The notes below the pieces were generated by a model that was not told the origin of the DNA, did no database searches, and saw nothing but the letters and a program-made list of their open reading frames with translations. From Paracoccaceae bacterium (GTDB taxonomy: Bacteria; Pseudomonadota; Alphaproteobacteria; Rhodobacterales; Rhodobacteraceae): a DNA stretch of 18,004 nt. The stretch is from positions 1 through 18,004 of the forward strand of contig DLZA01000046.1 of NCBI GenBank assembly GCA_003447515.1, given 5' to 3'. Both the position numbers and the translations under genes were made by a program. Shown piece after piece: positions 1 through 16,904 of this stretch; within the stretch, counting starts at the first letter, position 1; the number at the start of each line of letters is the position of its first letter.

Positions 1-176
1 TTGAATACAAAGTCGATCAAAATATTTTGGCTATATTGGGTTGTCAGAAAAATTTAACCCCTTGCGTCCTCAACCCGAAATTGCTTTCTTATAGTCAACG
101 GTCGCCAGCATGTTCTACGCCGCATCGAACGCGCAGGCTATAAACTTATTGCAATGTAAGGTGGCGGGTTTTCAAA
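1..176 (+). other. Leader region upstream of xdhA
   Basis: This stretch holds no gene I can support. A Shine-Dalgarno-like AAGGTGG at 159-165 precedes the xdhA ATG by about 11 nt and fits the chosen start. A short open frame ends in TAA at 157-159, but an in-frame stop near position 60 leaves it only about 30 codons long, and it matches nothing I recognise. It could be the eroded tail of an upstream gene or chance. A TATATT at 32-37 resembles a -10 box but has no convincing -35 partner, so the xdh promoter is not located. Confidence 0.4.
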
Positions 177-1550: not shown

Positions 1551-3847
1551 CCGTCCACAAACCTACCAAGCACGACGCTGCAAAGCTTCACGTAATGGGG
1601 ACTGCCCGCTACACTGACGACATTCCAGTACCTGCTAACTGTTTGCACTTAGCATTCGGCCTTTCGGATGTGGCTCACGGCAACATCACCAGCCTTGATC
1701 TAAAAAGTGTGCACGAATCCGAAGGCGTAATCGATGTCCTAACCGCTAATGATCTGCCCGCTGCCAACGATGTGTCACCGTCCAATCACTACGAGCCTCT
1801 CCTTGCAAACGGTTCTGTGCACTTCGTTGGTCAACCCATCTTTCTCGTAGTGGCTACCTCTCATCTTCTCGCCCGCAAAGCTGCGGCGAAAGGCAAGGCG
1901 AAAATCAAGGAATTGCCTGCGGTTCTATCAATTAATGATGCAATAGCCGCTGACAGTAAATTCGAAGAGCCAATTATCTTTACCAAGGGCGACGTCGCTA
2001 GTGTAATCATCAAAGCCGAGCATACACTGTCAGGTTCACTCGAAATGGGTGGGCAGGAACACTTCTACCTTGAAGGCCAAGCAGCCCTTGCCGTTCCAAA
2101 TGAGGGTGACATCACCATCCACTCATCCACCCAACACCCTACCGAAATCCAGCACAAAGTGGCTGAAGCACTTGGCTTACCATTCCACAACGTCCGTGTA
2201 GAAACACGACGCATGGGCGGGGGTTTTGGTGGCAAAGAAAGCCAAGGCAACTCACTGGCCTGTGCCACCGCCATCGTCGCAGCCAAACATGGCGTGTCCG
2301 CGAAGATGCGCTATGATCGAGATGATGACATGATTATCACAGGCAAACGGCACGATTTTCGGATCGATTATACTGTCGGATATAATGGTGCAGGTTTAAT
2401 AGAAGGCATTGAATTTACGCAGTATTGTCGCTGCGGTTGGACCCAAGACCTCTCACTCCCTGTCGCTGATCGTGCCATGCTTCATGCCGACAACGCCTAC
2501 CATCTACCCAACGCAAAAATCACCTCGCACCGGCTAAAAACAAACACCGTCTCCGCAACTGCATTCCGCGGCTTCGGTGGCCCTCAAGGTATTCTTGGTA
2601 TTGAAAGAGTCATCGATCATATTGCTCACACGATGGACGTCGACGCCAGTTATATCCGGACCGCTAACGCTTACGCAAACCATACCCACAATAAAGGCCA
2701 AATCACGCCATATCATATGAAGGTTACGGACTCTGTCACCGACCAAATTATGATCGAGCTGTTAGACAAATCCAGATACTCCCAACGTCGCGAACTCATA
2801 AAGTGGTTTAATCACGAAAACCCCCGCCTCAAAAAAGGCCTCGCCATTTCACCTGTTAAGTTCGGTATCTCTTTCACGCTTACACATCTGAACCAAGCAG
2901 GCGCGTTGGTTCATATCTATTCTGATGGCTCCATCCACCTGAACCACGGCGGCACTGAGATGGGCCAAGGTCTATTCACTAAGGTCGCGCAAGTCGCCGC
3001 TTCCGTTTTTGGCACACCGCTATCATCTATTAAAATAACTGCAACAGACACGGCCAAAGTTCCCAACACCTCCGCCACAGCCGCGTCCTCAGGCTCTGAC
3101 CTAAATGGCATGGCGGTCAAAGCTGCTTGCGAAACAATCAAACAGCGGCTCATAGATTTTGCTGCCAAACACTTTGATACACCAACTGATCTAATCCAAT
3201 TTGGTACAGGTATTATCCAAATTGGCGAGCAGCAGATTTCTTTTGCAAAACTTGCGTCACTTGCCTACCAGAACCGCATCTCGCTGTCTTCCACTGGCTT
3301 CTACGCTACACCAAAAATTGAGTGGGACCGTAAGGCAGGCAAAGGTCGTCCATTCTTTTACTTCGCATACGGTGCTTCCGTCACCGAGGTTGTGATTGAT
3401 ACGCTCACAGGTGAAAATCGCATCTTGCGCACTGATATTATCCATGATGTTGGAAAATCTCTAAACCCTGCAATCGATATTGGCCAAATAGAAGGCGGCT
3501 ACGTTCAAGGTGCAGGCTGGCTCACCACAGAAGAGCTGGTCTGGGACAACAAAGGTGTACTAAAAACCCAAGCGCCCAGCACCTACAAAATCCCTGCCTG
3601 CTCGGATTGTCCGGACATTTTCAACGTAACGCTCTGGGACAAAGGTGAAAACACTGAAGATACTATTTACAAGTCCAAAGCAGTAGGTGAACCACCTTTC
3701 ATGTTAGGTATTTCTGCCTTCCTTGCATTGTCTGATGCTGTTGCTGCCACCGGGGATAAATCTATCTATCCAGATCTCCAGGCCCCCGCGACAGCAGAGC
3801 AAATCTTGAAAGCGGTTAATCGTCAAAAAGGTCTGAAATGGGACTAA
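1547..3847 (+). CDS. xdhB: Xanthine dehydrogenase large subunit, molybdopterin-binding
   Basis: This is the catalytic subunit that hydroxylates hypoxanthine and xanthine to urate at the Mo-pterin centre. The 766-residue length is normal. Visible motifs are MGTARYTDD near residue 17, GGQEHFYLEGQ near 168 (the Gln that contacts the Mo-oxo group), GGGFGGKE at 224-231, AFRGFGG around R341, and VGEPP around E715. By family knowledge E231, R341 and E715 correspond to bovine E802, R880 and E1261, which bind and activate purine. Their joint presence supports a purine substrate over the aldehydes or CO used by relatives. Translation starts at GTG, with AGAGG at 1535-1539 as ribosome-binding site. The 3' end overlaps xdhC by 10 nt, so xdhABC form one operon. 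Confidence 0.95.
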   Translation: MTVHKPTKHDAAKLHVMGTARYTDDIPVPANCLHLAFGLSDVAHGNITSLDLKSVHESEGVIDVLTANDLPAANDVSPSNHYEPLLANGSVHFVGQPIFLVVATSHLLARKAAAKGKAKIKELPAVLSINDAIAADSKFEEPIIFTKGDVASVIIKAEHTLSGSLEMGGQEHFYLEGQAALAVPNEGDITIHSSTQHPTEIQHKVAEALGLPFHNVRVETRRMGGGFGGKESQGNSLACATAIVAAKHGVSAKMRYDRDDDMIITGKRHDFRIDYTVGYNGAGLIEGIEFTQYCRCGWTQDLSLPVADRAMLHADNAYHLPNAKITSHRLKTNTVSATAFRGFGGPQGILGIERVIDHIAHTMDVDASYIRTANAYANHTHNKGQITPYHMKVTDSVTDQIMIELLDKSRYSQRRELIKWFNHENPRLKKGLAISPVKFGISFTLTHLNQAGALVHIYSDGSIHLNHGGTEMGQGLFTKVAQVAASVFGTPLSSIKITATDTAKVPNTSATAASSGSDLNGMAVKAACETIKQRLIDFAAKHFDTPTDLIQFGTGIIQIGEQQISFAKLASLAYQNRISLSSTGFYATPKIEWDRKAGKGRPFFYFAYGASVTEVVIDTLTGENRILRTDIIHDVGKSLNPAIDIGQIEGGYVQGAGWLTTEELVWDNKGVLKTQAPSTYKIPACSDCPDIFNVTLWDKGENTEDTIYKSKAVGEPPFMLGISAFLALSDAVAATGDKSIYPDLQAPATAEQILKAVNRQKGLKWD

Positions 3848-4767
3848 ACCTGTCAGAACTGCGCAATGCTGTCGCAACCCACGGCCCACTCACCCGCATC
3901 CTCATCGCTGATCACAAAGGCTCTACCCCACGCGAGGCTGGAACATCCATGCTTGTATGGGCCAACGGTCAATCTGGCACGATCGGCGGCGGCGCACTTG
4001 AACAACAGGTAACAGACTTCGCCCGCACGGTCGACAAACCTACCGCGGTCAACATCCCACTGGGCCCAGCGCTCGGCCAATGCTGTGGTGGCAACGTGGT
4101 CGTCATTTTCGAACCATTCTCAATCAAAACGCTCCCCACTGACACAGGAGCCTACATTCGCAGAATCAGCGGCGAAGCAAATCAACCCTTTGCCTTTAAA
4201 AAACTACGGAAATCAATTCGCAATTCGGAGCAGAATGTCAGCCCTGTCTGGCTCGACGGCTGGCTACTTGAGCCACTCTCCAATCCCAAAACATCCCTCT
4301 GGCTTTACGGTGCAGGCCACGTAGGCCGTGCCATTGTCGATACTTTCGATGGATTGCCTTTCGACATAAAATGGGTTGATACGAGCGCAGATCGCTTCCC
4401 TTCACATATCCCACCACATGCTGATCGCCTGATTGCAAGTAAGCCGACCAATGTCGTACGTTATGCATCTGACATCGCTCATCACGTTGTTCTAACCTAC
4501 TCTCATGCGCTGGATTTAGACCTTTGCCATGCAATTCTTTCGCGGCCCTTCAGTACTCTTGGTCTCATCGGCTCAGCTACTAAACGCGCACGATTCTCAT
4601 CAAAGCTGACTGATCTAGGCCACACATCTGCACAAATTTCCCGCATAATATGCCCAATTGGCCAGCGCCAGCTCGGTAAAACACCAAAAGCTATTGCTAT
4701 CGGGCTCGCTACTGAATTGCTCAGTTTTAACGCCCTTTCGTCTGCCAACAAAAAGGCCGCCACATAA
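3838..4767 (+). CDS. xdhC: Xanthine dehydrogenase accessory protein XdhC
   Basis: XdhC binds molybdenum cofactor, promotes its sulfuration and inserts it into XdhB; it is not part of the mature enzyme. The 309-residue protein has the family signatures: GSTPREAG (28-35), GTIGGGALE (about 50-58), and LGQCCGG with the cysteine pair C82/C83 thought to take part in cofactor handling. The C-terminal half is a Rossmann-like domain starting at LWLYGAGHVGRA (about 155-166). The start overlaps the end of xdhB by 10 nt and an AAGG lies just upstream, so the two are coupled. It is the last gene of the plus-strand unit and converges on the ABC importer operon. Confidence 0.93.
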   Translation: MGLNLSELRNAVATHGPLTRILIADHKGSTPREAGTSMLVWANGQSGTIGGGALEQQVTDFARTVDKPTAVNIPLGPALGQCCGGNVVVIFEPFSIKTLPTDTGAYIRRISGEANQPFAFKKLRKSIRNSEQNVSPVWLDGWLLEPLSNPKTSLWLYGAGHVGRAIVDTFDGLPFDIKWVDTSADRFPSHIPPHADRLIASKPTNVVRYASDIAHHVVLTYSHALDLDLCHAILSRPFSTLGLIGSATKRARFSSKLTDLGHTSAQISRIICPIGQRQLGKTPKAIAIGLATELLSFNALSSANKKAAT

Positions 4768-4925
4768 CATAACATCACTTCTCCATCTCTCGGGCCTAAA
4801 TAAAATCTATCCTGACGTCATTGCCAGCGACAACGCCAGCTTTGCGACCTAGCTAGGTGACGTCCTCACACTTTTCTGTGAAAAAGCGCTGGCACATAAA
4901 AAGTTAAACCGAAATACCAGATACC
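4768..4925. other. Convergent intergenic region with nested inverted repeats
   Basis: This 158-bp gap separates the 3' ends of xdhC (+) and the last permease gene (-), where bidirectional termination would be expected. Visible symmetry: TGCCAGCG (4822-4829) pairs with CGCTGGCA (4887-4894); TGACGTCA (4813-4820) recurs as TGACGTC (4858-4864); ACCTAGCTAGGT (4847-4858) is a perfect 12-bp palindrome; TCACA (4866-4870) and TGTGA (4877-4881) form a small hairpin followed by A4. None has a classic GC-rich stem with a long T tract, so calling it a terminator is inference from position. Confidence 0.35.
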
Positions 4926-5801
4926 CTAACTTGAATGGCGCCGGTGGCGGGATATCGCCACAAGCATCAAGATGGTTACAAAGTAAGGCAGGCTGGAAAG
5001 AACCTGGGATGGGATCGCGACCCCAATCGCCTGTGCGGTTAATTCACCCAGCGACAAAACACCAAACAAAACAGCACCAAAGGCAACACGCCCAGTTTGC
5101 CAGGTTCCAAAGACGACAAGCGCCAAGGCGATCCAACCACGGCCTGCAATCATCCCGTCCGCCCAAAGCGGTGTATAAACCGTCGAGGCATAGGCACCCG
5201 CCAACCCGCACATGCCACCACCAAACGCAACGGCTGCGCAGCGAATTCCACCAACTGGATAGCCTATTGCCCGCGCTGCTTCAACGTTTTCACCGACAGC
5301 AGCGATTATCAATCCCAGTTTCGTTTTATTAAGAATGTACCACAAAACCATGGTTCCGGTGATTGCCAACCAGACGACAATGTCTTGTGTAAACAATGCC
5401 GGGCCAATCACTGGTATCTTAGATAAGGCAGGTAATCCGAACTCACTCAGCCCAGAAATCGTTAGACTTTCATAGTTTTTACCAAATAGCGCTGAAAGCC
5501 CCAAACCAAGAACTCCTACCGCCAGTCCGGATGCAACCTCGTTCGCCTTGAGAAAAATAACTAGAAAGGCGAACAACATAGCAAGGGTTGCACCAGCTAG
5601 GGAAGCCGCTAAAAAGCCAAAGCTGTGAGAACCTGAATGATATACACAGATAAAGGCAATCGCGGCTCCAAGCGCCATCATCCCTTCAAGCCCCAGGTTC
5701 AACAGACCAGTCTTTTCGACGACCATTTCACCTAAAGCCGCAAGCAAAAGCGGCAAAGCAGCGGCGAGCGTGCCAGCTAGTAGGAATTCAAGCGCACTCA
5801 T
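4926..5801 (-). CDS. ABC importer permease, nucleoside/BMP type (second permease)
   Basis: This is an inner-membrane permease of the BPD_transp_2 family, the type found in BMP-family nucleoside or purine importers such as NupQ, RnsD and YufQ. Its 291 residues are mostly hydrophobic and suggest roughly eight to nine membrane helices. The segment EKTGLLNLGLEGMMALGA near the N-terminus is typical of the smaller permease of these systems, as is AVGENVEAARAIGYPV in the cytoplasmic loop that contacts the ATPase. Its start codon overlaps the stop of the preceding permease gene by 4 nt (ATGA, 5798-5801), and it is the last gene of the minus-strand operon. The substrate cannot be read from the permease alone; context points to a purine or nucleoside. 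Confidence 0.9.
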   Translation of the reverse strand: MSALEFLLAGTLAAALPLLLAALGEMVVEKTGLLNLGLEGMMALGAAIAFICVYHSGSHSFGFLAASLAGATLAMLFAFLVIFLKANEVASGLAVGVLGLGLSALFGKNYESLTISGLSEFGLPALSKIPVIGPALFTQDIVVWLAITGTMVLWYILNKTKLGLIIAAVGENVEAARAIGYPVGGIRCAAVAFGGGMCGLAGAYASTVYTPLWADGMIAGRGWIALALVVFGTWQTGRVAFGAVLFGVLSLGELTAQAIGVAIPSQVLSSLPYFVTILMLVAISRHRRHSS

Positions 5802-6868
5802 GCCGAAACACTCCGGTCAATCTGAACCCTAAACCGTATGAATGTGAAGGTCAGTAGGTAAAAAGCTAACAACATCCCCTGAAAAACTTCAACGGCCGCA
5901 ACGGGTAGACCAGCTGAAACTGTGGCGCTGTCGCCACCAATGTATAGAACCGAGATCAGGAAGCTTGATGCAATAATCCCAAGAGGCCTTAACCCACCAA
6001 CATAGGCAACTATAATGGCGGCATAACCGTAACCAGTGGCCACTGATCTCTGAAGCTGCCCTAGTGGTCCGGCGACCTCGCTTGCCCCTGCGATTCCTGC
6101 TGCAAGACCGCTCAAGGCAAGACTTAGCAAAATCATTTTGGGAGCGTTAAACCCAGCATAAAGAGCGGCCTTTGGCGACAAGCCAGATGTACGAAGCTGG
6201 TAGCCCCGAAAGTGGTGTTCCATCATCAGGTAAGCGAATAAACTAGCCAACAGAGCAAAGATCAAAGAAATATTGGGACGCACGTTTTCAAACAACAAAG
6301 GCAACAACGCATTCTCCGGGAACATGACTGTCTGCGGAAAATTAAATCCGCGTGGATCTTTCCATGGTCCCAATAAGAAATAATTTAGAACTTGTATGGC
6401 TATAAAAGTCAGCATCAAAGTGACCAGAATTTCCGATGCGCCGAAGCGTATGCGTAACCCGGCTGCAATTCCTGCATAAATGGTGCCACCTACCCCCCCT
6501 GCAATGATCATTGCAGGAAGCATCAAAGGAAAATTTCCTTCGGGAAAGTACACGGGAAACGCAGATGCGCAAAGCGCACCTATAACGAACTGTCCTTCAG
6601 CACCTATGTTAAACACATTTGCGCGAAATCCGATGGCTAAGCCTTGAGCAATTAACAAAAGAGGAGCCATCTTCAACAATACTTCAGTAAAACTATACCA
6701 ACTTAGGAAGGGTTTTAATAAAAGAGAGTGAAGTGCTTTTCCTGCTGGAACGCCCAAAAGCGCAAAAAGAACCAAACTCGTCATGCATGTGAGAATCAAT
6801 GCTAGTACCGGCGCTCCAAACATCGCCAGTCGCGACGCTGCATCGCGACGAATTAATCTCAACTTCAT
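5798..6868 (-). CDS. ABC importer permease, nucleoside/BMP type (first permease)
   Basis: This is the larger permease of the same importer (356 residues, BPD_transp_2 family, resembling NupP, RnsC and YufP). It begins with a short basic cytoplasmic tail followed by about nine to ten hydrophobic segments. The motif GFRANVFNIGAEGQFVIGAL near residues 80-100 is the family hallmark, and the later loop with TSGLSPKAALYAGF is the likely coupling region to the ATPase. It would form a heterodimeric channel with the smaller permease encoded next. Both ends overlap neighbours by 4 nt (5798-5801 and 6865-6868), indicating co-translation of transporter parts. Confidence 0.9.
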   Translation of the reverse strand: MKLRLIRRDAASRLAMFGAPVLALILTCMTSLVLFALLGVPAGKALHSLLLKPFLSWYSFTEVLLKMAPLLLIAQGLAIGFRANVFNIGAEGQFVIGALCASAFPVYFPEGNFPLMLPAMIIAGGVGGTIYAGIAAGLRIRFGASEILVTLMLTFIAIQVLNYFLLGPWKDPRGFNFPQTVMFPENALLPLLFENVRPNISLIFALLASLFAYLMMEHHFRGYQLRTSGLSPKAALYAGFNAPKMILLSLALSGLAAGIAGASEVAGPLGQLQRSVATGYGYAAIIVAYVGGLRPLGIIASSFLISVLYIGGDSATVSAGLPVAAVEVFQGMLLAFYLLTFTFIRFRVQIDRSVSA

Positions 6869-8364
6869 ACTTTTGCCCCTAACATAAAGGTGCCAACTTT
6901 TTCAGCTGTCGTTTCGGCCACCGGCAACGCTTTCGATAGGCGACCTTCATGCAAAACATGAAGGACATCACAGATTTCGAACAATTCTTCAAGCTCCTCT
7001 GAAATCACCAAGATGGCAGCGCCTTGACTTCGCATTTCAAGCAGGCGACGGCGGATTGCGGTAGCGGCACCGACATCAACACCCCAAGTGGGCTGAGACA
7101 CTAGCATCACATCGGGTGACAACATAATTTCGCGCCCAAGAATAAATTTTTGCAAGTTGCCACCAGACATCGCACCGGCTTCCGCATCCGGCCCGGGTGT
7201 GCGCACATCGAATTGCTCAATACAGCGGCGGGTAAATGTTTTCTCGACTTTGCGCTTTATGATCCCGCGCCATAGCATACCTTTTTGGTGGGCGGTCAGC
7301 AGGCTGTTATCTGCCAGTGACATTTCTGGCACCGCACCGCGCCCCAAGCGTTCTTCTGGTACAAAGGCGAACCCAAGTTCACGACGTTGCATGGGCCCCA
7401 AACACCCCACATCTTGTTTCTTAATGACAATCATATCTGGCTGATGTGCTCGTATTTCACCAGAGATAAGTGCGGCCAACTCTTGTTGGCCATTCCCAGA
7501 AATACCAGCAATCCCAATAATCTGACCTGCACGCAGATCCAGATTTATATTTTCCAAGGTGGTGCCAAACCGTGTCGCGCGTGGATGGCTAAGATTGGAG
7601 ATACGCAGCTGCGTCTCGCCAGGCACCACCGAAGTTGATACCCCAAGATGAGGCATCTCTCGTCCAATCATCATCTGCGCCAGAGCAAGTGCATCATGCT
7701 CACGCGGGTCAACCAGCCCAGTCACTTCTCCACCTCGCAGAACTGTGGCCTCATCGCAGAGTTCACGGATCTCTTCCAGCTTGTGAGAAATGAAAAGGAT
7801 TGCTGTTCCATCTACCTGAAGTTTTCGCAAGGTTTCAAATAAAAGTTTGACGCTTTGGGGCGGAAGCACAGAAGTTGGTTCGTCTAGGATTAAAAGCTTT
7901 GGGTTAAGAAGCAGGCAGCGAATAATCTCGACCCGCTGACGCTCACCCACTGAAAGGGTGTGAACCATGGCATTTGGGTCCACAGTCAGACCGAATCTTT
8001 CTCCAAGCTCATTAATCTTGCGCGCCAAATCTACCGTCTTCCCGGGTACCATAAGCGAAACATTTTGAACAACATTTAGCGTCTCGAAAAGTGAGAAGTG
8101 CTGAAACACCATACCGATACCCAACGCCTGGGCATCCGATGGCCTAGAAAGATGCACGGGTTCCCCATTCCAGTAGATGATGCCTTCGTCAGGGTGTTCG
8201 ACACCATAAATAAGCTTCATGAGCGTGGATTTCCCCGCACCATTTTCACCAAGAACAGCATGGATCGACCCGGGCTTTACACTCAGGTCGATCGCCTTGT
8301 TTGCTTGAACCGTGCCATAGCGTTTCGATACGCCTGTCAGATTCAAGATTGGTTGATCACTCAC
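6865..8364 (-). CDS. ABC importer ATP-binding protein, two nucleotide-binding domains
   Basis: This is the energising ATPase of the importer, with two tandem nucleotide-binding domains in about 499 residues as in NupO, RnsB and YufO. The first domain has Walker A GENGAGKST (39-47), signature LSVGERQR and Walker B LLILDEPTS. The second is degenerate in the usual family way: GISGNGQQEL for Walker A, MSGGNLQK for the signature and LVSQPTWGVD at Walker B. I chose GTG at 8362-8364 because family alignment begins just before the first beta strand and because GTG forms a 4-nt overlap (8361-8364) with the stop of the binding-protein gene. The longer frame starting at ATG 8400 adds 12 residues unlike the family and has no good ribosome-binding site. 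Confidence 0.92.
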   Translation of the reverse strand: MSDQPILNLTGVSKRYGTVQANKAIDLSVKPGSIHAVLGENGAGKSTLMKLIYGVEHPDEGIIYWNGEPVHLSRPSDAQALGIGMVFQHFSLFETLNVVQNVSLMVPGKTVDLARKINELGERFGLTVDPNAMVHTLSVGERQRVEIIRCLLLNPKLLILDEPTSVLPPQSVKLLFETLRKLQVDGTAILFISHKLEEIRELCDEATVLRGGEVTGLVDPREHDALALAQMMIGREMPHLGVSTSVVPGETQLRISNLSHPRATRFGTTLENINLDLRAGQIIGIAGISGNGQQELAALISGEIRAHQPDMIVIKKQDVGCLGPMQRRELGFAFVPEERLGRGAVPEMSLADNSLLTAHQKGMLWRGIIKRKVEKTFTRRCIEQFDVRTPGPDAEAGAMSGGNLQKFILGREIMLSPDVMLVSQPTWGVDVGAATAIRRRLLEMRSQGAAILVISEELEELFEICDVLHVLHEGRLSKALPVAETTAEKVGTFMLGAKV

Positions 8365-9455
8365 GAAGGCAACGGCGATATAACGCCAGCAACATGCCAA
8401 TCCATGCTAAGGATTTCCCCATCAGTCATGACCACCCCGTCTGCGACACGTTCGGTGCCAGATTGGTCAATCAGTGGACCCTTGAAGACATCAAATGTAC
8501 CACCCTTAATTTCAGCCTGACGCGCGTTGATTTTTGCCTGCATGTCGGCGGGTATATCTGGATTCCAATCTGCGGTGTAGACAATGTCATCTTCCATACC
8601 GAGCCAATAGTTGTCACCCTTGAAGTCACCAGCCACATGCCCATCCACTAGACGCTTAAAGTGCGGGCCCCAATCGGTGCCTACAACGCCAAGATATTTT
8701 TTGGTCGCATAGCTTTTCATCGAAGAATTCAGGTTCCAAGCATACACGCCGGCTTCCTCAGCAACGGCGATCACAGATGGCGTATCCTGCGCATTTGAAA
8801 AAATCACATCGACATCCTGTGAAATCAATGCCTTAGCTGCTTCTTGTTCGGATGCGGGATCAAACCAACTGTTAACCCAGACAACAGTAATCTCAATTTC
8901 AGGATCAACGGAACGCGCTCCCAACATGAACGAGTTGATTGATGTGATCAATTCAGGAATGGCGAAGGCACCAACACAGCCTAACTTTTTAGTCTTGGTC
9001 AGCGATGCCGCAGCCATTCCCATCAGATATGTCCCTTGCCAATATTTCGCAGTGAATGGCGCAAAATTCGGTTCAACCATAAACCCAGAGGCATGAATGA
9101 TCGAAACATCACGGCGGCGCTTAGCAATTTGAATGCCTCCATTCTGATATCCAAAAGAGCCAAGCAAAAGAACATCATGGCCTTCGCCAACCAACCCGTT
9201 GGCAATCCGGTCTGCATCAGGTCCTTCGGCGATGTTTTCCAGCACCGTTACTTCCAAAGCATCTCCATAGGCTTCCTGGACACTGCGCACGCCTTCCATC
9301 AATGTGCGTGACCAGCCCACATCTGCTTCGGGCGATGGCAGTAATACCCCCATTTTCACCTTGTCTGCAGCCATGGCCTGCATCGGTATCGCGATTGCAG
9401 TTGTAGCTGCAAGCGACCCTTTCAAGAATGAGCGGCGTTTTATAGATTGTGACAT
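8361..9455 (-). CDS. BMP-family substrate-binding protein, Tat-exported
   Basis: This is the periplasmic binding protein that delivers substrate to the importer. The 364-residue chain starts with a twin-arginine signal, KRRSFLKGS at about residues 6-14, followed by a hydrophobic stretch and an AMA|A cleavage site near residue 29, so it is probably exported folded. The mature part has the BMP/PnrA-like pattern (VKMGVLLPSPEADVGWS, later EQEAAKALISQDVDVIF and GTDWGPHFKRLVDG). Family members bind purine nucleosides or related bases. No lipobox is present, so it is soluble rather than a lipoprotein. Its ATG abuts the TAA of the amidohydrolase gene, and a strong AGGAGG (complement of 9463-9468) lies inside the end of that gene, which suggests higher expression of the binding protein. 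Confidence 0.92.
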   Translation of the reverse strand: MSQSIKRRSFLKGSLAATTAIAIPMQAMAADKVKMGVLLPSPEADVGWSRTLMEGVRSVQEAYGDALEVTVLENIAEGPDADRIANGLVGEGHDVLLLGSFGYQNGGIQIAKRRRDVSIIHASGFMVEPNFAPFTAKYWQGTYLMGMAAASLTKTKKLGCVGAFAIPELITSINSFMLGARSVDPEIEITVVWVNSWFDPASEQEAAKALISQDVDVIFSNAQDTPSVIAVAEEAGVYAWNLNSSMKSYATKKYLGVVGTDWGPHFKRLVDGHVAGDFKGDNYWLGMEDDIVYTADWNPDIPADMQAKINARQAEIKGGTFDVFKGPLIDQSGTERVADGVVMTDGEILSMDWHVAGVISPLPS

Positions 9456-10844
9456 TTATAGTCCTCCTGTTTGGTTTGGTAGAATCGTGTGAAGTGTATC
9501 TTCGGCGGCAGCGAACAGCGCAGCCTCGTCAAGATGAGGAAATGCACCATTTTTCCAAACGATACGCCCGTTAATCATTGTCAAGTCAACCGGCCCCCCG
9601 ATACCAACTTTGGCAACTAGGCTAACCGGATCATGACGGGTACCAACGTAATCAAGCTTGCGCGTGTCGATGGCGAAAAGATCAGCGGCCATTCCAGGGC
9701 GCAAGGCACCAATATCAGACCGCCCAAGCAAAGATGCCCCGCCTTCAGTTGCATAGGCCAAGAAAGATGAGGGTTTTGGAACCTCGTCTTCACGCGAACT
9801 GGCCACAAGGCATTGCAGCATATAAGAAGAATGTACCGCATGCATCAGGTTCGAATTATCATTTGACGCCGCGCCATCACATCCCAACCCAATTCGAACG
9901 CCCAAAGCATTCATAGCAGGAATATCGGTAACTTCAGCCCCGACCAGATAAACCGGTTCGGAACAATGCGATACTCCAGTGCCAGATGCAGACATTGATT
10001 TCAGTTCATCGCGCGTCAGTTCCCAACAATGGGCATAAAATGTGTCTGGTCCAGCGAATCCAAGGCTTTCACAGTAATCAACGGAACGCATTCCATGAAC
10101 CTGTTCTATCACTGCGCTTTCACCCTCGCCCACGTGGCTGTGCAGAATGACGCCTTTGTCGCGCGCAAGCGCGACCGATTCCACAAAAGTTTCACGATAA
10201 CAATTTACTGGCTGACAGGGAGCGACCGCAACCTTTCGCATTGCAAGTGGTTCTGACTGGTGGAAAGCGTCAATTGCCCGCGCACAATCCGCGATGAACT
10301 CATCTGTCGTCTCCAACATCTCATCAGGGATCGTGCTACCTTCGGATTTAGGCAAAGTATTCCCACCACGACCAGCGTGAAATCGGATCCCCATCATTTC
10401 TGCTGCCTCAAATTGACGATCAATAATGCGCGATCCCGCATGCCGAGGGAAGCAGTATTGATGATCAAATGCTGTCGTACATCCATGTTTGATCAGTTCT
10501 GCCATTGCAACAATCGAACTGTGATAAAAACAGTCTTCCGTTAATCTCGAAAAGATTGGATAGACACGGTCCAGCCATTCGATGACCGAATACCGCGTCC
10601 AATCAAGTTCCGCACGATTGCGTACAAAGCACTGAAAGAAATGGTGGTGTGTGTTTACCAAACCAGGATAAACAAAAAGGCCGGAACCATCGACAACTTC
10701 AGCTTTCTCAGGCACGATCCTTTCCAAATCAGGTCCTATTGATACAATGGCACCATGTTCACAAAGAATATCATGGTCCCACAAAACAGGTTCACTTTCC
10801 GAAGTGACAATCGCTGCGCACCGTTTTAGCAAAATAGCAGTCAT
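9456..10844 (-). CDS. Purine-deaminase-type amidohydrolase (8-oxoguanine deaminase-like)
   Basis: This is a cytosolic, metal-dependent amidohydrolase of the ATZ/TRZ (cog0402) group, which deaminates or dechlorinates heterocycles. With start M at 10844 it has about 462 residues. Visible active-site elements: NTHHHFFQ (H66 and H68 as HxH metal ligands), a later HSHVGEGE with the His ligand and catalytic Glu, YAHCWEL, and LGCDGAASND with the Asp ligand. The layout, including GCTTAFDH, APCQPVN and GTGVSHCSEP, resembles 8-oxoguanine deaminases most, but the residues that would fix the substrate cannot be assigned by eye. ATG 10844 is chosen because GGAGG lies 7 nt upstream and it overlaps the GST-like gene's stop (ATGA, 10841-10844). 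The longer frame from 10925 adds 27 residues unlike the family. Context suggests guanine or a methylated or oxidised guanine as substrate, giving a xanthine. Confidence 0.85.
   Translation of the reverse strand: MTAILLKRCAAIVTSESEPVLWDHDILCEHGAIVSIGPDLERIVPEKAEVVDGSGLFVYPGLVNTHHHFFQCFVRNRAELDWTRYSVIEWLDRVYPIFSRLTEDCFYHSSIVAMAELIKHGCTTAFDHQYCFPRHAGSRIIDRQFEAAEMMGIRFHAGRGGNTLPKSEGSTIPDEMLETTDEFIADCARAIDAFHQSEPLAMRKVAVAPCQPVNCYRETFVESVALARDKGVILHSHVGEGESAVIEQVHGMRSVDYCESLGFAGPDTFYAHCWELTRDELKSMSASGTGVSHCSEPVYLVGAEVTDIPAMNALGVRIGLGCDGAASNDNSNLMHAVHSSYMLQCLVASSREDEVPKPSSFLAYATEGGASLLGRSDIGALRPGMAADLFAIDTRKLDYVGTRHDPVSLVAKVGIGGPVDLTMINGRIVWKNGAFPHLDEAALFAAAEDTLHTILPNQTGGL
9463..9468 (-). promoter_or_regulatory. 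Strong Shine-Dalgarno site for the binding-protein gene
   Basis: On the minus strand the sequence reads AGGAGG seven nucleotides before the ATG at 9455-9453. It lies within the last codons of the amidohydrolase gene and is the most consensus-like ribosome-binding site I noticed in the operon, fitting the need for excess binding protein. Confidence 0.75.
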
Positions 10845-11452
10845 TCTGCCGCCTCCAGTTCGTGTAACCGGTGGATACCTGGCATTTCTATGAAGCCAGG
10901 CAAAGATCTGAGCGCTCGCATCCAAAGGCGAATTGAAGGGTAAACATCGAGGCTGACACCGCCATCAGGCGCTAATGCAGTGTTGGGAAAACAGGCAATA
11001 TCGGCAATTGTCGGCGTGTCCCCAGTCAAGAAAATCATCCCATCAAAACGTTGTTCGGTCAGATGTGCCTCAAGCAATCGCAACAAGTGCACGCCGCGCT
11101 TGCGAGCAGCATCAATATCAACTTCGAAACCAAGGACATCGTGAAGCCGGGCCATTCCAAGAGTTTCGTTCAAAGTCCTGGCGAAATCCAACCACCCATC
11201 ATCATCCCCCTGCCACTCAGGAAGATTTCTTGTTAGATGCCTCAACATGTCAGAACTGTCGGTCATAATCAAATCCTCATCCCGTAAGATTGGAAGCGTA
11301 CCACCAGGATTCAGCTTCAACATCTCGGGCGATTTGTGCTCCCGTGCCGGGTGAAAATTGACCGCTTGCAGTTCCAGTTTTTGGCCAGACAAAGCCGCCA
11401 TAAGCCGAATTTTGTAGCAACTTGCGCTGAGAACATAGTCATAAAGAATCAT
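10841..11452 (-). CDS. Glutathione S-transferase-like protein (NdmE-like role proposed)
   Basis: This 203-residue protein has the two GST domains. The thioredoxin-fold N-terminal half begins LYDYVLSASCYKIRL and contains LNPGGTLPIL, with the cis-proline at P54, and MTDSSDML in place of the usual ES-AI glutathione contact. The helical C-terminal half has PTIADIACFP near residue 150. Overlaps of 4 nt with both neighbours (11449-11452, 10841-10844) place it between the oxygenase catalytic subunit and the deaminase. In the Pseudomonas caffeine pathway, NdmE is a GST homologue that acts as a structural partner in the NdmCDE N7-demethylase complex. The same pairing here with a Rieske-less oxygenase suggests a scaffolding role. 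A true glutathione-dependent activity, for example with the formaldehyde released by demethylation, remains possible. Confidence 0.82.
   Translation of the reverse strand: MILYDYVLSASCYKIRLMAALSGQKLELQAVNFHPAREHKSPEMLKLNPGGTLPILRDEDLIMTDSSDMLRHLTRNLPEWQGDDDGWLDFARTLNETLGMARLHDVLGFEVDIDAARKRGVHLLRLLEAHLTEQRFDGMIFLTGDTPTIADIACFPNTALAPDGGVSLDVYPSIRLWMRALRSLPGFIEMPGIHRLHELEAAE
10852..10856 (-). promoter_or_regulatory. Shine-Dalgarno site fixing the amidohydrolase start
   Basis: The minus strand reads GGAGG seven nucleotides before the ATG at 10844-10842. It decides between this start and the longer open frame beginning at 10925. Confidence 0.7.
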
Positions 11453-12285
11453 GCAGCCACCATTTGTGCGCCATATGAATACCCAATACGTTTAAGCCAG
11501 CGTCGATAGGCTACCGAAGTCATATCAGCTTGCGTTGGTGTCTCCATCCCAGGGTCAAGCGGCAATTTTAGGGGTATCTGGTTTTCAAGAATTGACCGAT
11601 CTTGCATGAAAATCAACTGCTGAAAGCTTACCATTTCAGCCATAGTCGAATCGTCGTCATAAAGTGCCATCCAAGGCCAAACCTCGCACCATTCCTCGGT
11701 TAAGGGCTGCACGAACAGGGTGATAATATCCCATTCTTTGGGGCGAGGCGGGCAGGTTTTATAAAGGACCGCACAGGTGGGCGCAGGAACCCGGTACATG
11801 TATTCCGTGATGATTCCACCCTCAGCTGATTTCGCGGCTTGTGGCTGAAAAAATTTGACTTTGGTGGCCCAGACCTCATTCACCCCCTCACGGATTTCAA
11901 CCTTATAGCGGTCAACTTCAGTATGGGGTTCAGCACCAAGAATATCTGTATGAATGAACGGGAAATGCGCTATGTCCAAAAAATTTTCGACGGCCCGTAG
12001 AGGCGAACACTTCACTTTTACTGAACCCACATCTACCAGATGACGACCAGGCGTATCAGCCTCGGGGATAACGAACAAATCGTGGTCAGGCTGACCCAGA
12101 CTAGTCCAAAGATGGCCGAAACGTTCGATCGTAGGCAATGACACGCCACCACTCTTCTTTACAACGAAACCAGTGTCGTCATGTGTCAGTGAGATTTCTT
12201 GGTCAAACAGCAAAGTTTGGCGCGGCGTATAAATGTCCGATAACAACCCAACCGGATACCAATGATCTTTGCTTGAATCACTCAT
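11449..12285 (-). CDS. Rieske-oxygenase catalytic subunit without its own Rieske cluster (NdmC-like)
   Basis: The 278-residue protein has the mononuclear-iron catalytic domain of ring-hydroxylating/demethylating oxygenases. ENFLDIAHFPFIH (100-112) supplies the bridging D104 and iron ligands H107 and H112, and MQDRSILE supplies the third ligand D229. Its N-terminus starts like a Rieske domain (HWYPVGLLSDI, 8-18) and resumes with the post-Rieske strand (FGHLWTSLG, 56-64), but the CxH and CxxH cluster loops between are absent, making it 60-80 residues shorter than usual. Electrons must therefore come from another Rieske protein, most simply the one encoded immediately upstream, whose stop overlaps this ATG (12282-12285). 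NdmC of caffeine-degrading Pseudomonas has the same architecture and removes the N7-methyl of 7-methylxanthine. N-demethylation is inferred, not proven. Confidence 0.87.
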   Translation of the reverse strand: MSDSSKDHWYPVGLLSDIYTPRQTLLFDQEISLTHDDTGFVVKKSGGVSLPTIERFGHLWTSLGQPDHDLFVIPEADTPGRHLVDVGSVKVKCSPLRAVENFLDIAHFPFIHTDILGAEPHTEVDRYKVEIREGVNEVWATKVKFFQPQAAKSAEGGIITEYMYRVPAPTCAVLYKTCPPRPKEWDIITLFVQPLTEEWCEVWPWMALYDDDSTMAEMVSFQQLIFMQDRSILENQIPLKLPLDPGMETPTQADMTSVAYRRWLKRIGYSYGAQMVAA

Positions 12286-12902
12286 GCCGCTTCCAATTCA
12301 TCGCGTAGTTTCTCAACATAACGTGAGACGATTTTTTTATCTTGGCCTGCACCGGCAAACACATGTGCAAAACAGCTTCGTGATGTGCTGGGTTGCAGCG
12401 CAATTGCCAAATCATATTTGCCTCTCAAAACAATCAGAGGGTCCTGCGGATGATCAAAATACCGAGCTATTGCAGGAGCCCCGCATGAAATATCAAGTGA
12501 GCGGATGGGAATGCGATCTCCAATATCTGGAACATCACCATTGACAGTTCCGAGCGCCACCCAAAGCGCCTGATTTCGAGTTTCACACACGTAAGTATTC
12601 GCACAAATCGTCTTTGGCGGCGTCAAGTCTGGATGGGCAGGAATGTAGTCACACGCACCATCTAAATTATATTGCCAACCATGATAAACGCAGGCCAGTA
12701 CTTCGCCTCGTACAAACCCATGAGACAACCGCATTCCACGGTGAGGGCAGCGATCATCCCAGGCATGGAACCGGCCCAACCCACTTCTCCAGATAGCTAA
12801 ATCTAAGCCATCAACTCGCCGAGGTACCACCGTACCTACAGGAATATCTTCCGCCAGTCCGACAGCAATCCAGTTCAATACAATTCCCCACAATCTCGTC
12901 AT
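12282..12902 (-). CDS. Stand-alone Rieske [2Fe-2S] protein with C-terminal extension
   Basis: This is a soluble electron-transfer protein of about 206 residues. The Rieske motif is complete: C52-x-H54 (RCPHRGM) and C71-x2-H74 (CVYHGW), within a fold beginning NWIAVGLAEDIP. After the Rieske domain (to about 135) comes an extension of about 65 residues, with YFDHPQDPLIVLRG and a charged helical tail, that I do not recognise. There is no catalytic-iron motif and no flavin or plant-type ferredoxin domain, so it is neither a full oxygenase nor a reductase. It overlaps the Rieske-less catalytic subunit by ATGA, and I infer that it supplies that subunit's missing cluster in trans. The ATG at 12902 has no clear ribosome-binding site. 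A TTG at 12878, preceded by GGGGA and starting at NWIAVG, is a reasonable alternative that would give 198 residues. Confidence 0.85.
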   Translation of the reverse strand: MTRLWGIVLNWIAVGLAEDIPVGTVVPRRVDGLDLAIWRSGLGRFHAWDDRCPHRGMRLSHGFVRGEVLACVYHGWQYNLDGACDYIPAHPDLTPPKTICANTYVCETRNQALWVALGTVNGDVPDIGDRIPIRSLDISCGAPAIARYFDHPQDPLIVLRGKYDLAIALQPSTSRSCFAHVFAGAGQDKKIVSRYVEKLRDELEAA

Positions 12903-12952
12903 TAGAGTTAGTCAGCTCAGAGACTCAAATGCAAGGATTCGATTTTCACCTC

Positions 12953-12975
12953 AAGAGCTATCCGATCAAGCTCTT
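12953..12975 (-). promoter_or_regulatory. Intra-operon RNA hairpin candidate
   Basis: AAGAGCT (12953-12959) and AGCTCTT (12969-12975) are perfect complements separated by 9 nt. The hairpin sits across the stop codon of the small upstream gene, about 50 nt before the Rieske start, in the only sizeable gap (71 bp) of the operon. No T tract follows, so it is not a standard terminator. A processing site, partial attenuator or mRNA-stability element is possible. Confidence 0.35.
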
Positions 12976-13273
12976 AATCTTCGTAACGCTGCGATCCAGT
13001 TGATTGTGAATCCATAAGCGTAAGCTCATCGATATTAACACTCTTCGGCCCAAGACTTGCTGCGAGCGCAAAGGCTTCAATCATCTCGCTCACGCCAGCC
13101 ACCTCTATAAAGATCAATCGCGAACTTCGTTGAGTGATTTCAAATTCAACACCAAGTTTTCTGGCGTGCCGCTCGAGCCATTGGTCAAAATCGCAGCTAT
13201 CTAATTGCCCAGTAAGACTGAAGGTAAGCGATTTTAGACTGTCGTTTTTTGTTTGGCTAATATTTTTGCTCAT
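12974..13273 (-). CDS. Small acylphosphatase-like protein lacking catalytic residues
   Basis: This is a 99-residue protein, first gene of the minus-strand unit. Residues 17-90 follow the acylphosphatase pattern: a beta strand ending LTGQLDSCDFDQW (20-32), an amphipathic helix ERHARKLGV, a beta strand with FIEVAG, then MIEAFALAASLGPKSVNIDEL, like the family's GPxxAxVDxV ending. The catalytic Arg of the GxVQGVxFR loop corresponds to D30 and the catalytic Asn of WVxN to Q48, so acyl-phosphate hydrolysis is unlikely. It may be a binding or structural protein for the downstream enzyme. The fold assignment is by eye and moderate. The ATG at 13273 has only a weak purine-rich site upstream, but an in-frame stop lies a few codons before it, so no earlier start nearby is possible. 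Confidence 0.65.
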   Translation of the reverse strand: MSKNISQTKNDSLKSLTFSLTGQLDSCDFDQWLERHARKLGVEFEITQRSSRLIFIEVAGVSEMIEAFALAASLGPKSVNIDELTLMDSQSTGSQRYED

Positions 13274-14097
13274 ACTTCATCATGAATACAGGAAAGAAAA
13301 AGAATTCAAAGTCTTCAACCTGAATAAAAAAATTTTTAGTCAACGTCATGCGCTACCCACTGCCAAAATGCGTGCGCCCCCACGTTCCGGGTGTCGCAAG
13401 AACGTTGACCCAGGTCTTGGCAAGACCTAGACTGCTAAATGACGAATGAGAGGAAACTGGCGCCTTGCGGTAAAGCGATCGCCGCAGATGCCAAATATTT
13501 TTCTTGTGCGATGCTCGCATCTACGCCAGTGGGCGTTGCCCACAATTTGGTCATCACCAGATTACAGGGGCTGCATCATCACGGACGTCCAGTTTGGGTA
13601 AGCGGAAATGCAGCTTCGATGATTGCAGTGAAGGGCTTGTCTGGACCGGAAGCATTACCCAGCTGCGCCAAACTCCACGATCGCTTGGTCCTCCAAGAGC
13701 GCGCTCACGCTCTCAATTAATTGCATCACAGTCGCGACCACAACTTCACAACTAAAAACGAGCCATTTCAACACTTTAGGCACCAGATAAGCTGGTACAA
13801 CTGCCCGCTGACATGCCACGCGGCGAGGTCTACGGCGATTATCAGGTTGCAGCAGGTTCTTAACTCATTAGGTTACATCCGCCACCACCGGGCTGATGCA
13901 CGGTCGATGGCGTGTGATATATGCAGTTCTTGGGTTTGATCCTCTCTCGACAGATAGTCGGTGAGCGGCAAGATCTTTCCGATGGCTTTTTCTGACCATT
14001 TTTCAATACAGTCAAAATTCACTGAAGCACTAAACAGTTTTTATTATCGTTGGGTAGCTATATCGCAAACGGTCAAACTCATGGCTCCACACCTAGA
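13274..14097. other. 824-bp stretch without a recognisable gene
   Basis: This region lies between the start of the minus-strand methylpurine operon and the 3' end of the MFS gene. The part next to the operon (13284-13345) is AT-rich; the minus strand carries TTGACT (complement of 13338-13343) that could be a -35 box, but no good -10 lies at the usual distance. Farther out is a plus-strand promoter-like element at 13405-13433. Downstream of it the plus strand is open from an ATG at 13439 to 13939 except for one stop at 13718-13720. The translation matches no family I recognise and is rich in His, Arg and Ser, so I do not call a gene. A stem AGAGCG/CGCTCT lies at 13696-13713. The rest shows no clear structure; an eroded gene or a non-coding RNA is possible. 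Confidence 0.5.
13405..13433 (+). promoter_or_regulatory. Promoter-like element with palindromic spacer
   Basis: TTGACC (13405-13410) and TAGACT (13428-13433) are separated by exactly 17 bp, a sigma70-like arrangement on the plus strand. The spacer is almost filled by a perfect 17-bp palindrome, AGGTCTTG-G-CAAGACCT (13412-13428), a position typical of an operator that controls RNA polymerase. It points away from the minus-strand operon and would start transcription near 13440, where no recognised gene lies. The regulator could also act on the divergent operon. No regulator gene is visible in the window. Confidence 0.4.
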
Positions 14098-15306
14098 TTA
14101 ACCTTTAACTAACCGACCAAAGTTCCACATAATCCGGATAGCAATAATCATCAAAAAAGCTGATAAAACAAAAGGCGCACCGGGAAAGGTGAAAAACCAT
14201 CCATCGTCGCTGTACAGCCAAAACAGGCCTGTCATCAATGTTGGTGCTAAGATCGAAGCAATAGCGCGGACCGAACTGACAACACCTTGCAGTTCACCCT
14301 GTGCGTTGTCGGGCACTGCCCGGCTCATAATACCTTGCATCGCAGGGCCAGCCAACATGCCTACCGCGCTGAGAGGCAATAATGCGAAAATAACCCATGT
14401 GGCGGGAGCAAGAACGAAGCCAATAAAGGACAATAATTCCATCGATAAACCCAGCATAGCCGTACGATATTCGCCTAAACGCGGTATCACAAAGCGGATC
14501 AAAACCCCTTGGCCAAACACCAGCATCAAACCAAACGCCCCAAGCGAAAGACCCACAAGCCACTCTTCCCAGCCAAATTTAGCCATGGTGTAAAAAGCCC
14601 AGACCACAGGATAAACCAAAAACGCGACTTCTTGAAAGAAAAACACAATCAACAAGCGCGTTTGTCCTGTCAATTTACCAACCTGTTCAAATGCTCCCCA
14701 AGGGAGCGCGCGGTACCACTCAAAAGGACGACGGTTTTCTGCTGTAACTGTTTCTTCTAATGAGAAGAAACCAAATACCGCAATTCCCCCTGCTAAGACA
14801 GCCGCCACAAAAAAAGGCGCACGAGGCCCCCATTCGGCGGCCAGACCCCCAATGACTGGCCCCAAGATGAAGCCAACCCCAAAAGCAGCACCGAGCAGAC
14901 CAAAATTCTTACCCCGCTCCTTCGGTTCAGAGACATCCGCAATCACCGCACTTGCCGTTGAGTGGTTCGCCGCCGAAGCGCCACCAATAATCCGCGCCAA
15001 TAACAACAGCCAAAGCGACCCTGAAATACCCATCAGCACATAATCAAGCGACATCACCGAAAGCGACACCAACAACACTTTGCGTCGCCCAAACTGATCA
15101 GAGATATTCCCAATCAGTGGCCCAAATAAAAACTGCATCAGCGCGAAAACGGTAGACATAACACCCCCCCAAACCGCAGCATTTGCCAAAGTAGAACCCC
15201 CTAGATCCAACAGCAACGCAGGCATGACTGGCATGATCAAACCGATGCCAATTGCATCAATCATCACAGTCAATAAAATGAAATGAACAGCACGTTTATT
15301 GGACAT
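14098..15306 (-). CDS. MFS drug/proton antiporter, TetA-type (DHA1 family)
   Basis: This is an inner-membrane efflux transporter of 402 residues, with about twelve predicted helices, in the TCR/Tet branch of the major facilitator superfamily. Seen motifs: an acidic residue in the first helix (MIDAIGIGLIMPVMP), motif A in the loop after helix 2 (GNISDQFGRRKVLL, about 65-78), AANHSTASAVIADV after helix 4, and the antiporter motif C in helix 5 (GAAFGVGFILGPVIGG). Such chromosomal TetA-like proteins are common in alphaproteobacteria and usually have unknown substrates; nothing here shows tetracycline resistance. No tetR-like gene is adjacent, though 824 bp of unexplained DNA lies downstream. It is on the same strand as, and 209 bp downstream of, the enolase-superfamily gene, with no evidence that they are co-transcribed. 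Confidence 0.88.
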   Translation of the reverse strand: MSNKRAVHFILLTVMIDAIGIGLIMPVMPALLLDLGGSTLANAAVWGGVMSTVFALMQFLFGPLIGNISDQFGRRKVLLVSLSVMSLDYVLMGISGSLWLLLLARIIGGASAANHSTASAVIADVSEPKERGKNFGLLGAAFGVGFILGPVIGGLAAEWGPRAPFFVAAVLAGGIAVFGFFSLEETVTAENRRPFEWYRALPWGAFEQVGKLTGQTRLLIVFFFQEVAFLVYPVVWAFYTMAKFGWEEWLVGLSLGAFGLMLVFGQGVLIRFVIPRLGEYRTAMLGLSMELLSFIGFVLAPATWVIFALLPLSAVGMLAGPAMQGIMSRAVPDNAQGELQGVVSSVRAIASILAPTLMTGLFWLYSDDGWFFTFPGAPFVLSAFLMIIAIRIMWNFGRLVKG

Positions 15307-15515
15307 TTTGAAAGCCTTGAATCTTACTTGATGAATTTATTTCTATAACAGTTTTGCTTGCAAGAACGAAGTGACGCTCCATTTAAATTCTCACGCAAGA
15401 GGGTTAATAAACCAATCTCAGTCTCTTCAATAAAAATTTTTTGTGTCGTCTCCAGGCAGCTTTTATTTTCTGAAACCACCAAAAGTCATCAAAACCCACA
15501 CCGGCGTGCACACCC

Positions 15516-16754: not shown

Positions 16755-16904
16755 CTTACACCTCTGCATTTCAATCACACTGTGCCGATAAAAAAATATT
16801 TTCCAGTCCATTTACAATGTCCCCAACATTTTATTTTACAGGATCCTAGACCTTTGCTTACGAACACCTTATTTCAGGGCCAAAGACTTTGCAGGACAAC
16901 GCCA
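16755..16904. other. Divergent intergenic region
   Basis: This 150-bp gap separates the starts of the enolase-superfamily gene (-) and the SulP gene (+) and must contain both promoters. It is moderately AT-rich, but I see no convincing -35/-10 pair or palindrome. The minus-strand site AGAGGTG (complement of 16759-16765) serves the enolase-superfamily gene. Confidence 0.4.
16893..16896 (+). promoter_or_regulatory. Shine-Dalgarno site fixing the TTG start of the SulP gene
   Basis: AGGA at 16893-16896 lies 8 nt before the TTG at 16905. The next in-frame ATG is inside the membrane domain (17151), so TTG is the likely start. Confidence 0.55.

Follow-up and report, generated by a model that had tools for sequence, protein, structure and literature searches.

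A conserved alphaproteobacterial operon with an NdmH-type hydrolase and a split NdmC-like oxygenase: a candidate route for the catabolism of N-methylated guanines

The DNA analysed here, called the window below, is a stretch of 18,004 nucleotides (GenBank assembly GCA_003447515.1, contig DLZA01000046.1, positions 1 to 18,004) from the 71%-complete genome of a Paracoccaceae bacterium. It carries a tightly packed unit of nine minus-strand genes, all with intact reading frames, which may form an operon for the breakdown of methylated guanine bases. A set of xanthine dehydrogenase genes faces the unit head-on. The features are as follows, in the order in which the unit is read.

12974-13273, minus strand: ACYP-like protein of 99 amino acids, acylphosphatase-fold, first gene of the unit (PF00708, 21.6 bits against a cut-off of 22.5)
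12282-12902, minus strand: RIE, a Rieske protein of 206 amino acids (Pfam Rieske match)
11449-12285, minus strand: OXY, an NdmC-like non-haem iron oxygenase of 278 amino acids, predicted N-demethylase (VanA_C, no Rieske match)
10841-11452, minus strand: GST-like protein, NdmE counterpart and probable structural partner
9456-10844, minus strand: NdmH-type amidohydrolase, predicted N2,N2-dimethylguanine hydrolase
8361-9455, minus strand: BMP-family solute-binding protein, AtzT-like, with a TAT-like signal (PF02608)
6865-8364, minus strand: ABC transporter ATPase with two ABC stretches and a GTG start (PF00005)
5798-6868, minus strand: ABC transporter permease A, PermA (PF02653)
4926-5801, minus strand: ABC transporter permease B, PermB (PF02653)
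177-4767, plus strand: xdhA-xdhB-xdhC, convergent neighbour outside the conserved unit (TIGR02963, TIGR02965, TIGR02964)

Six junctions of the unit (RIE/OXY, OXY/GST, GST/hydrolase, BMP/ATPase, ATPase/PermA and PermA/PermB) are 4-nucleotide stop/start overlaps; the hydrolase and BMP genes abut with 0 nucleotides between them, and 71 nucleotides separate the ACYP-like gene from RIE. The Pfam families found in the unit are VanA_C without a Rieske match, Rieske, GST, Amidohydro_1, Bmp, ABC_tran and two BPD_transp_2. An earlier reading made from the sequence alone (the sequence-only reading) had described this unit as an oxygenase without a Rieske domain, a separate Rieske protein, a GST, an amidohydrolase and a BMP-type importer, and all of these genes are indeed present between positions 4926 and 13273; the ACYP-like gene had not been mentioned. 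The head-on xdhABC, which that reading had also described, proved genuine by the NCBI cut-offs (XdhA 574.9 against 467, XdhB 1195.8 against 849.5, XdhC 246.5 against 161.6).

Is this arrangement kept in other genomes? A scan of one genome per species returned 248 relatives of OXY, from which the best 80 loci were kept. All eight genes from RIE to PermB (RIE-OXY-GST-hydrolase-BMP-ATPase-PermA-PermB) were present in 78 of the 80 loci, and their order was identical in 78 of 78, an arrangement far beyond chance. The two exceptions (L071 and L094) are interrupted by contig ends; the permease matches in L071 belong to an unrelated upstream transporter, and the real count for PermA and PermB is 78. 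The ACYP-like gene lies directly upstream of RIE in 76 of the 80 loci according to a search with a profile built from 60 of these copies, which recovered 16 of the remaining 20. The named hosts are mostly Rhodobacterales and Rhizobiales, some records being unclassified Alphaproteobacteria, and some copies are plasmid-borne, for example on pRL10 of Rhizobium johnstonii 3841. Many bacteria from roots and from the sea carry the operon. Among named organisms, the closest relatives of the window OXY come from Roseobacteraceae/Paracoccaceae. No OXY relatives were found on viral contigs. Of 149 genomes sampled within the family, 4 have window-type OXY (at least 65% identity), and of 385 sampled within the class, 2 have OXY relatives (E up to 1e-90); the operon is an accessory trait. 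The window-type hydrolase was found in the same 4 of 149 family genomes (hypergeometric 5e-8), a co-occurrence that is not independent evidence because both genes sit in one operon.

The likely substrate of the amidohydrolase can be read from its active site. Homologues of AtzB were described in 2026 as N2,N2-dimethylguanine hydrolases (NdmH), which release xanthine and dimethylamine with kcat/KM values of 1e5-1e6 per M per s and favour the dimethylated substrate 150-3600-fold over guanine; one of the characterised enzymes is from a Rhodobacteraceae bacterium (PMC13054789). That paper characterises isolated enzymes, names their active-site residues and states that the physiological context is under investigation; the terms "operon", "Rieske", "BMP", "genome neighborhood", "transporter" and "AtzT" do not appear in its main text. 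Every one of the 80 window-type copies (those of 79 loci and of the window) has all 13 published active-site residues, and in the window hydrolase they have the same spacing with a constant numbering offset of −3. They are the CQNN set (C213, Q214, N217 and N165), the substrate-flanking W85, W93, Y98, Y133 and P300, and the catalytic Q74, E243, H275 and D326. On the other hand, the CQNN set is missing from the two 8-oxoguanine deaminases and the three guanine deaminases (guaD) from related clusters that were compared, and these five enzymes deviate at W85, N165, Q214, N217 and P300. An identity as 8-oxoguanine deaminase was ruled out by these residues and by the NCBIfam score (PRK08203, 372 bits against a cut-off of 532, with 365.1 and 371.6 in two relatives), and an identity as guanine deaminase was ruled out by the residues. 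Some close homologues carry the JGI label hydroxyatrazine ethylaminohydrolase, a naming in line with AtzB kinship. The enzyme is thus predicted to be an N2,N2-dimethylguanine hydrolase, and at the level of family this sequence-based assignment is strong.

The oxygenase resembles an enzyme that acts on the N7-methyl group of purines. OXY is 44% identical over 273 positions to Pseudomonas putida NdmC (P0136, M1EY73_PSEPU, named Methylxanthine N7-demethylase), and the window GST shares 41% identity with its counterpart in an ndmCDE-type cluster on a plasmid. The GST gene stands beside OXY in all 80 loci. In the NdmCDE system of P. putida CBB5, NdmC has no Rieske cluster, NdmD is a Rieske domain fused to a reductase and NdmE is GST-like; homologous clusters with no known function were noted in Sinorhizobium and Mesorhizobium (PMC4408171), and clusters of this kind were recovered again in our survey. 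OXY carries the histidine motif D-x2-H-x4-H in all 80 loci and Rieske ligands in none, and the Asp that serves as third iron ligand (D229) is invariant in 28 of 28 alignment rows. In a tree of 49 rows, the window OXY clade (23 rows, support 100/100) adjoins an alphaproteobacterial clade and belongs to a Rieske-less assemblage in which NdmC is also found, the HpxD-type enzymes lying outside it; the tree is midpoint-rooted and has some long branches, and much of the surrounding clade is uncharacterised. A place clearly inside a non-demethylase clade, which would have counted against the sequence-only reading, is not what the tree shows: the oxygenase groups with NdmC and apart from HpxD.

The substrate pocket of OXY also has a conserved feature. 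The residue seven positions before the third iron ligand is Gln in all 75 scored copies among the 80 of the window type and in all 114 scored among 120 proteins from an NdmC search; the same position is Asn in HpxD and Tyr in SxtT. The solved "NdmA QL mutant" entries concern this position, which we take to correspond to NdmA Asn282 and NdmB Gln289. The conserved Gln favours a purine-like substrate and is compatible with N7-demethylation and with hydroxylation at C8 alike.

How could an oxygenase without a Rieske cluster receive its electrons? RIE matches the N-terminal half of NdmD, without the reductase, and is about 195-220 amino acids long in all 80 loci. In the predicted structures, RIE appears as a complete Rieske-oxygenase subunit fold whose catalytic domain is shrunken and has no iron site, and OXY appears as an oxygenase subunit with a collapsed, cluster-less Rieske domain. 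The pair resembles two copies of a single oxygenase subunit that have degenerated in reciprocal fashion. For the C-terminal part of RIE, a comparison with the oxygenase family by hhalign gave a probability of 28%, with a score (28.2) above all 100 column shuffles (maximum 16.6), and the predicted fold weighed more in this assignment than did the sequence evidence. With such reciprocal degeneracy, the [2Fe-2S] cluster contributed by RIE would come into productive contact with the mononuclear iron of OXY across the subunit boundary, as it does in ordinary Rieske oxygenase trimers, and the GST-like protein would hold both subunits together.

The ACYP-like protein may belong to the same assembly. 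It aligns with acylphosphatase 1aps at E 0.033, and the window protein has Asp at the 1aps Arg position and no Asn at the second site. These are the positions that we take to be the catalytic Arg and Asn of acylphosphatases, and neither is conserved among the ACYP-like proteins in a 61-row comparison. The protein is possibly accessory to the oxygenase, as a candidate unrecognised subunit or assembly factor.

The importer, for its part, may be suited to a purine base. The best PDB matches of the BMP protein are 3s99 and AtzT (6pi5); AtzT carried guanine when it was purified (KD 0.11 uM; PMC6834077). All 79 BMP copies compared keep the AtzT ligand contacts Ser97, Phe98, Glu165, Trp194 and Asn218, and in the same 79 a Trp conservatively replaces AtzT Tyr45. 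By this pocket homology, the ABC importer would bring in a purine base.

The relatives of OXY outside the window-type operon were also surveyed for neighbouring purine genes. In genome G480, the ACYP-RIE-OXY-GST block is intact (OXY 63%) and adjoins a CDA-fold deaminase of 163 amino acids, whose closest solved proteins are CMP/dCMP deaminase and then guanine deaminase; a search of 19.9 kb around the block found neither a hydrolase nor an importer of the window type, nor was an NdmH-type enzyme found genome-wide at E up to 1e-130 among the best few candidates scored per genome. In the sister clade, OXY occurs with guaD in R. tumorigenes and, in genome G015, with a guaD just below the cut-off (364.6 against 375.4), an 8-oxoguanine deaminase above it (569 against 532), an adenosine-deaminase-family protein and xanthine-dehydrogenase-like genes. 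OXY was also found with an 8-oxoguanine-deaminase homologue, guaD and a xanthine-dehydrogenase-like gene (G086), with guaD and a xanthine-dehydrogenase-like gene (G156), and as a partial gene beside guaD (G163), while Mesorhizobium AR02 has an ndmCDE-type set with guaD and a molybdenum hydroxylase. G073 (L152) has a weak adenosine-deaminase-like match (27%). The pairing of an NdmC-like oxygenase with one of several unrelated deaminases is frequent and not universal. Co-occurrence with purine genes, whose absence would have counted against the sequence-only reading, is seen in several of these related clusters; within operons of the window type, no linked purine enzyme other than the deaminase was found.

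Some of these clusters have further features. Those of G015 (L015/L016), G086 (L148/L149) and G156 (L150) contain two NdmC-like oxygenases, deaminases, a GMC oxidoreductase and a xanthine-dehydrogenase-like protein, and the purine clusters of G015 and G086 include an aldehyde dehydrogenase. On the P. putida plasmid p420352-strA (L101, 2545-15953), an ndmCDE-type set lies beside the urate hydroxylase HpxO and a xanthine-permease-family transporter with no ndmA/ndmB annotated nearby, and another purine pathway is probable there. On pSymA of S. meliloti (L102, 8848-13108), a pair of neighbouring proteins, each carrying the annotation of a ring-hydroxylating dioxygenase alpha subunit and each lacking a Rieske motif, is followed by an NdmD-type protein and then a GST.

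Could the operon serve the catabolism of guanine bases methylated at N2 and N7? We regard this as the leading reading, at about even odds, with RNA turnover as the probable source of the bases. The importer would take up a methylated guanine base, and the NdmH-type hydrolase would then convert the N2-dimethylamino group to a keto group, releasing dimethylamine and leaving xanthine, or 7-methylxanthine if an N7-methyl is present. The split oxygenase would remove the N7-methyl as formaldehyde, turning 7-methylxanthine into xanthine (the position attacked being that of NdmC), with electrons from a donor encoded elsewhere, and xanthine dehydrogenase would oxidise xanthine to urate. These substrates and their order are what we infer from gene content, conservation, active-site residues and predicted folds. 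A base that would draw on the two known chemistries in turn, passing through 7-methylxanthine, is 2,2,7-trimethylguanine; N2,N2-dimethylguanine and 7-methylguanine would need only parts of the pathway.

2,2,7-Trimethylguanine is the base of the trimethylguanosine RNA cap. A more specific proposal, which we put forward only tentatively, is that the operon is dedicated to this base and its partly methylated relatives: NdmH would yield 7-methylxanthine and dimethylamine, a reductase-less oxygenase of the NdmC/NdmE form, built as a hetero-assembly of RIE (cluster only) and OXY (iron only), would yield xanthine, and AtzB and AtzT would have descended from parts of such pathways. For steps downstream of the general route, the genome of the window also encodes an OHCU decarboxylase, a formaldehyde-dehydrogenase-type gene that is cut by a contig edge (474.5 bits against a cut-off of 543.95) and two HODM-type genes, which are of the dimethylamine-monooxygenase kind. 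HODM-type genes are present in three of the four operon-bearing genomes checked.

A number of observations weigh against a pathway for N2- and N7-methylated guanines. The fourth of these genomes, G134, is without an HODM-type gene. If N2,N2-dimethylguanine were the sole substrate, NdmH alone would reach xanthine, leaving the oxygenase without an N7-methyl to act on. The identity of OXY to NdmC is only 44%, Rieske oxygenases can shift their specificity, and SxtT and SxtDIOX/GxtA, rather than NdmA/B, are the solved proteins nearest to OXY in both sequence and fold. In the importer, Asp224 after an inserted Gln223 takes the place of AtzT Asn220, neither residue varying among the 79 copies, and the second-shell Asn169 of AtzT aligns with Ser172 in the window protein. 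The CDA-fold deaminase of G480 does not fit a dimethylamine-releasing step in that genome, and the guanine deaminases of the sister clade point to plain 7-methylguanine or guanine. Beside OXY in L101, L102, L104, L106 and L151 no deaminase was detected; for L151 this holds for a comparison with the reference proteins, in which many open reading frames were left without a name. An Rfam scan of the window gave no match up to E 1, and the idea of a riboswitch was dropped; in six related loci, the RNAs of Rfam type were only a tRNA and an ar14 sRNA.

Two further points against it concern the electron supply and the last step. No reductase was found in the window unit. The NdmD reductase region was matched in two of the 80 loci (L038 and L039) and an HpxE-like reductase in one (L038), all outside the unit; the window's own genome has three NAD_binding_1 matches as reductase candidates, of which two are probably HODM-associated because they lie about 0.5 kb from the HODM-type genes. 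A conserved linkage to xanthine dehydrogenase was rejected, since xdh-type genes occur in the flanks of only one of the 80 loci (L033), and the facing xdhABC is therefore local to this genome. The sequence-only reading had treated xdhABC as part of the system: the genes are present locally, and xdhB scores above the cut-off in all four operon-bearing genomes checked, including that of the window, while the neighbourhood itself is not kept.

The foremost alternative is that 7-methylguanine is the main substrate, converted by the amidohydrolase to 7-methylxanthine (or demethylated first to guanine) and then N7-demethylated to xanthine. The homology of OXY to NdmC, the guaD or CDA-fold deaminase beside OXY in related clusters and the adjoining xdhABC would all agree with this. 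The 80 amidohydrolases with an NdmH signature do not, and neither does the selectivity of the published enzymes for the dimethylated substrate over guanine; the main text of PMC13054789 does not mention 7-methylguanine. The full NdmH active-site signature therefore makes 7-methylguanine unlikely as the main amidohydrolase substrate, and we consider this alternative unlikely as a whole. Of the methylpurine route in the sequence-only reading, the split oxygenase similar to NdmC/NdmE, the purine-type importer, the deaminase and the xanthine product are supported, and its first substrate is probably a different one.

A distinctly unlikely possibility is that the oxygenase hydroxylates the purine C8 in the manner of HpxD, so that N2,N2-dimethylguanine would pass through xanthine to urate without molybdenum. 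HpxD, a relative of OXY that likewise acts on purines, also has an amide at that place in the pocket, xanthine from NdmH would be a substrate for such an enzyme, relatives of the operon have no xdh linkage, and xanthine riboswitches are associated with HpxD/E-like oxygenases, guanine/8-hydroxyguanine-type amidohydrolases and nucleoside transporters (PMC7373994). Nevertheless, HpxD itself bears a Rieske cluster and falls outside the NdmC/OXY assemblage, the GST partner and the split form are NdmC traits, and xdhB is present in all four operon-bearing genomes checked.

It is very improbable that the oxygenase instead strips the N2-methyls, taking N2,N2-dimethylguanine through N2-methylguanine to guanine by a route alternative to that of the hydrolase. 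Rieske oxygenases do carry out oxidative N-dealkylation (PMC12445004) and the substrate pool would be shared, yet this activity would be redundant with the hydrolase of the same operon, and the closest relative of known function demethylates a ring nitrogen (PMC4408171). Least probable of all is a non-purine heterocycle, such as a natural s-triazine- or pterin-like amine, with an ancestral resemblance to purine enzymes, for although AtzB-cluster hydrolases and AtzT take triazines (PMC13054789, PMC6834077) and the JGI label on some close homologues names one, the evidence from oxygenase, importer and hydrolase alike favours purines, and the operon was not born of a recent herbicide because it is spread over two orders.

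The unit is bordered on its 5' side by a long gap (13274-14097) with a plus-strand open reading frame of 93 amino acids (13439-13720) that has no Pfam match. Beyond it lie, on the minus strand, an MFS transporter like Tet(A/B/C)-type pumps (14098-15306; 316.5 bits against a family cut-off of 475) and an enolase-superfamily sugar-acid dehydratase under the cut-offs of the families compared (15516-16811). An open frame on the plus strand (16782-18002) runs past the contig end and, judged by eye, is SulP-type anion transporter-like.

RNA turnover commonly yields methylated guanines. Among the literature matches listed, which leave out most subscription journals, there was neither a description of this operon nor a bacterial pathway consuming methylated guanines. 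The operon would give NdmH, whose physiological context was left open in 2026, its natural pathway, and the proposal is testable in cultivable rhizobia and roseobacters. As of May 2026 the NdmCDE complex was described as unsolved (PMC13237722), and the model of reciprocal degeneration offers a concrete structural hypothesis for it. The model would also explain how a Rieske oxygenase can split without losing the electron path across its subunits, and the RIE/OXY pair would suggest how such an unusual two-piece oxygenase evolved.

Compared with known systems, the operon appears to combine known parts in a new way, with the putatively reciprocally degenerate RIE/OXY pair as the new structural point. 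The AtzT solute-binding protein shares five of seven ligand-contacting positions with the window protein, a sixth being conservative and Asn220 not kept. The 8-oxoguanine (PRK08203) and guanine (TIGR02967) deaminases share with the window hydrolase its amidohydrolase branch and the positions Q74, E243, H275 and D326; they differ from it at five active-site positions, and clear members of these families sit in the sister clusters instead. SxtT and SxtDIOX/GxtA are single full-length subunits with both metal sites, and the pocket amide of OXY is Tyr in SxtT. HpxDE of Klebsiella and Pantoea, a molybdenum-independent xanthine hydroxylase, is a related purine Rieske oxygenase (about 29% identity to OXY), whereas HpxD differs from OXY in being full-length with its own Rieske cluster, in its adjoining PDR/VanB-type reductase gene and in its separate clade. 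The likeness to NdmCDE lies in a Rieske-less iron oxygenase, a Rieske cluster on another protein and a GST-like partner. The window unit departs from NdmCDE in that RIE stops where the NdmD reductase starts, and in its additional ACYP-like gene, its inclusion of the hydrolase and BMP importer, and its lack of ndmA and ndmB.

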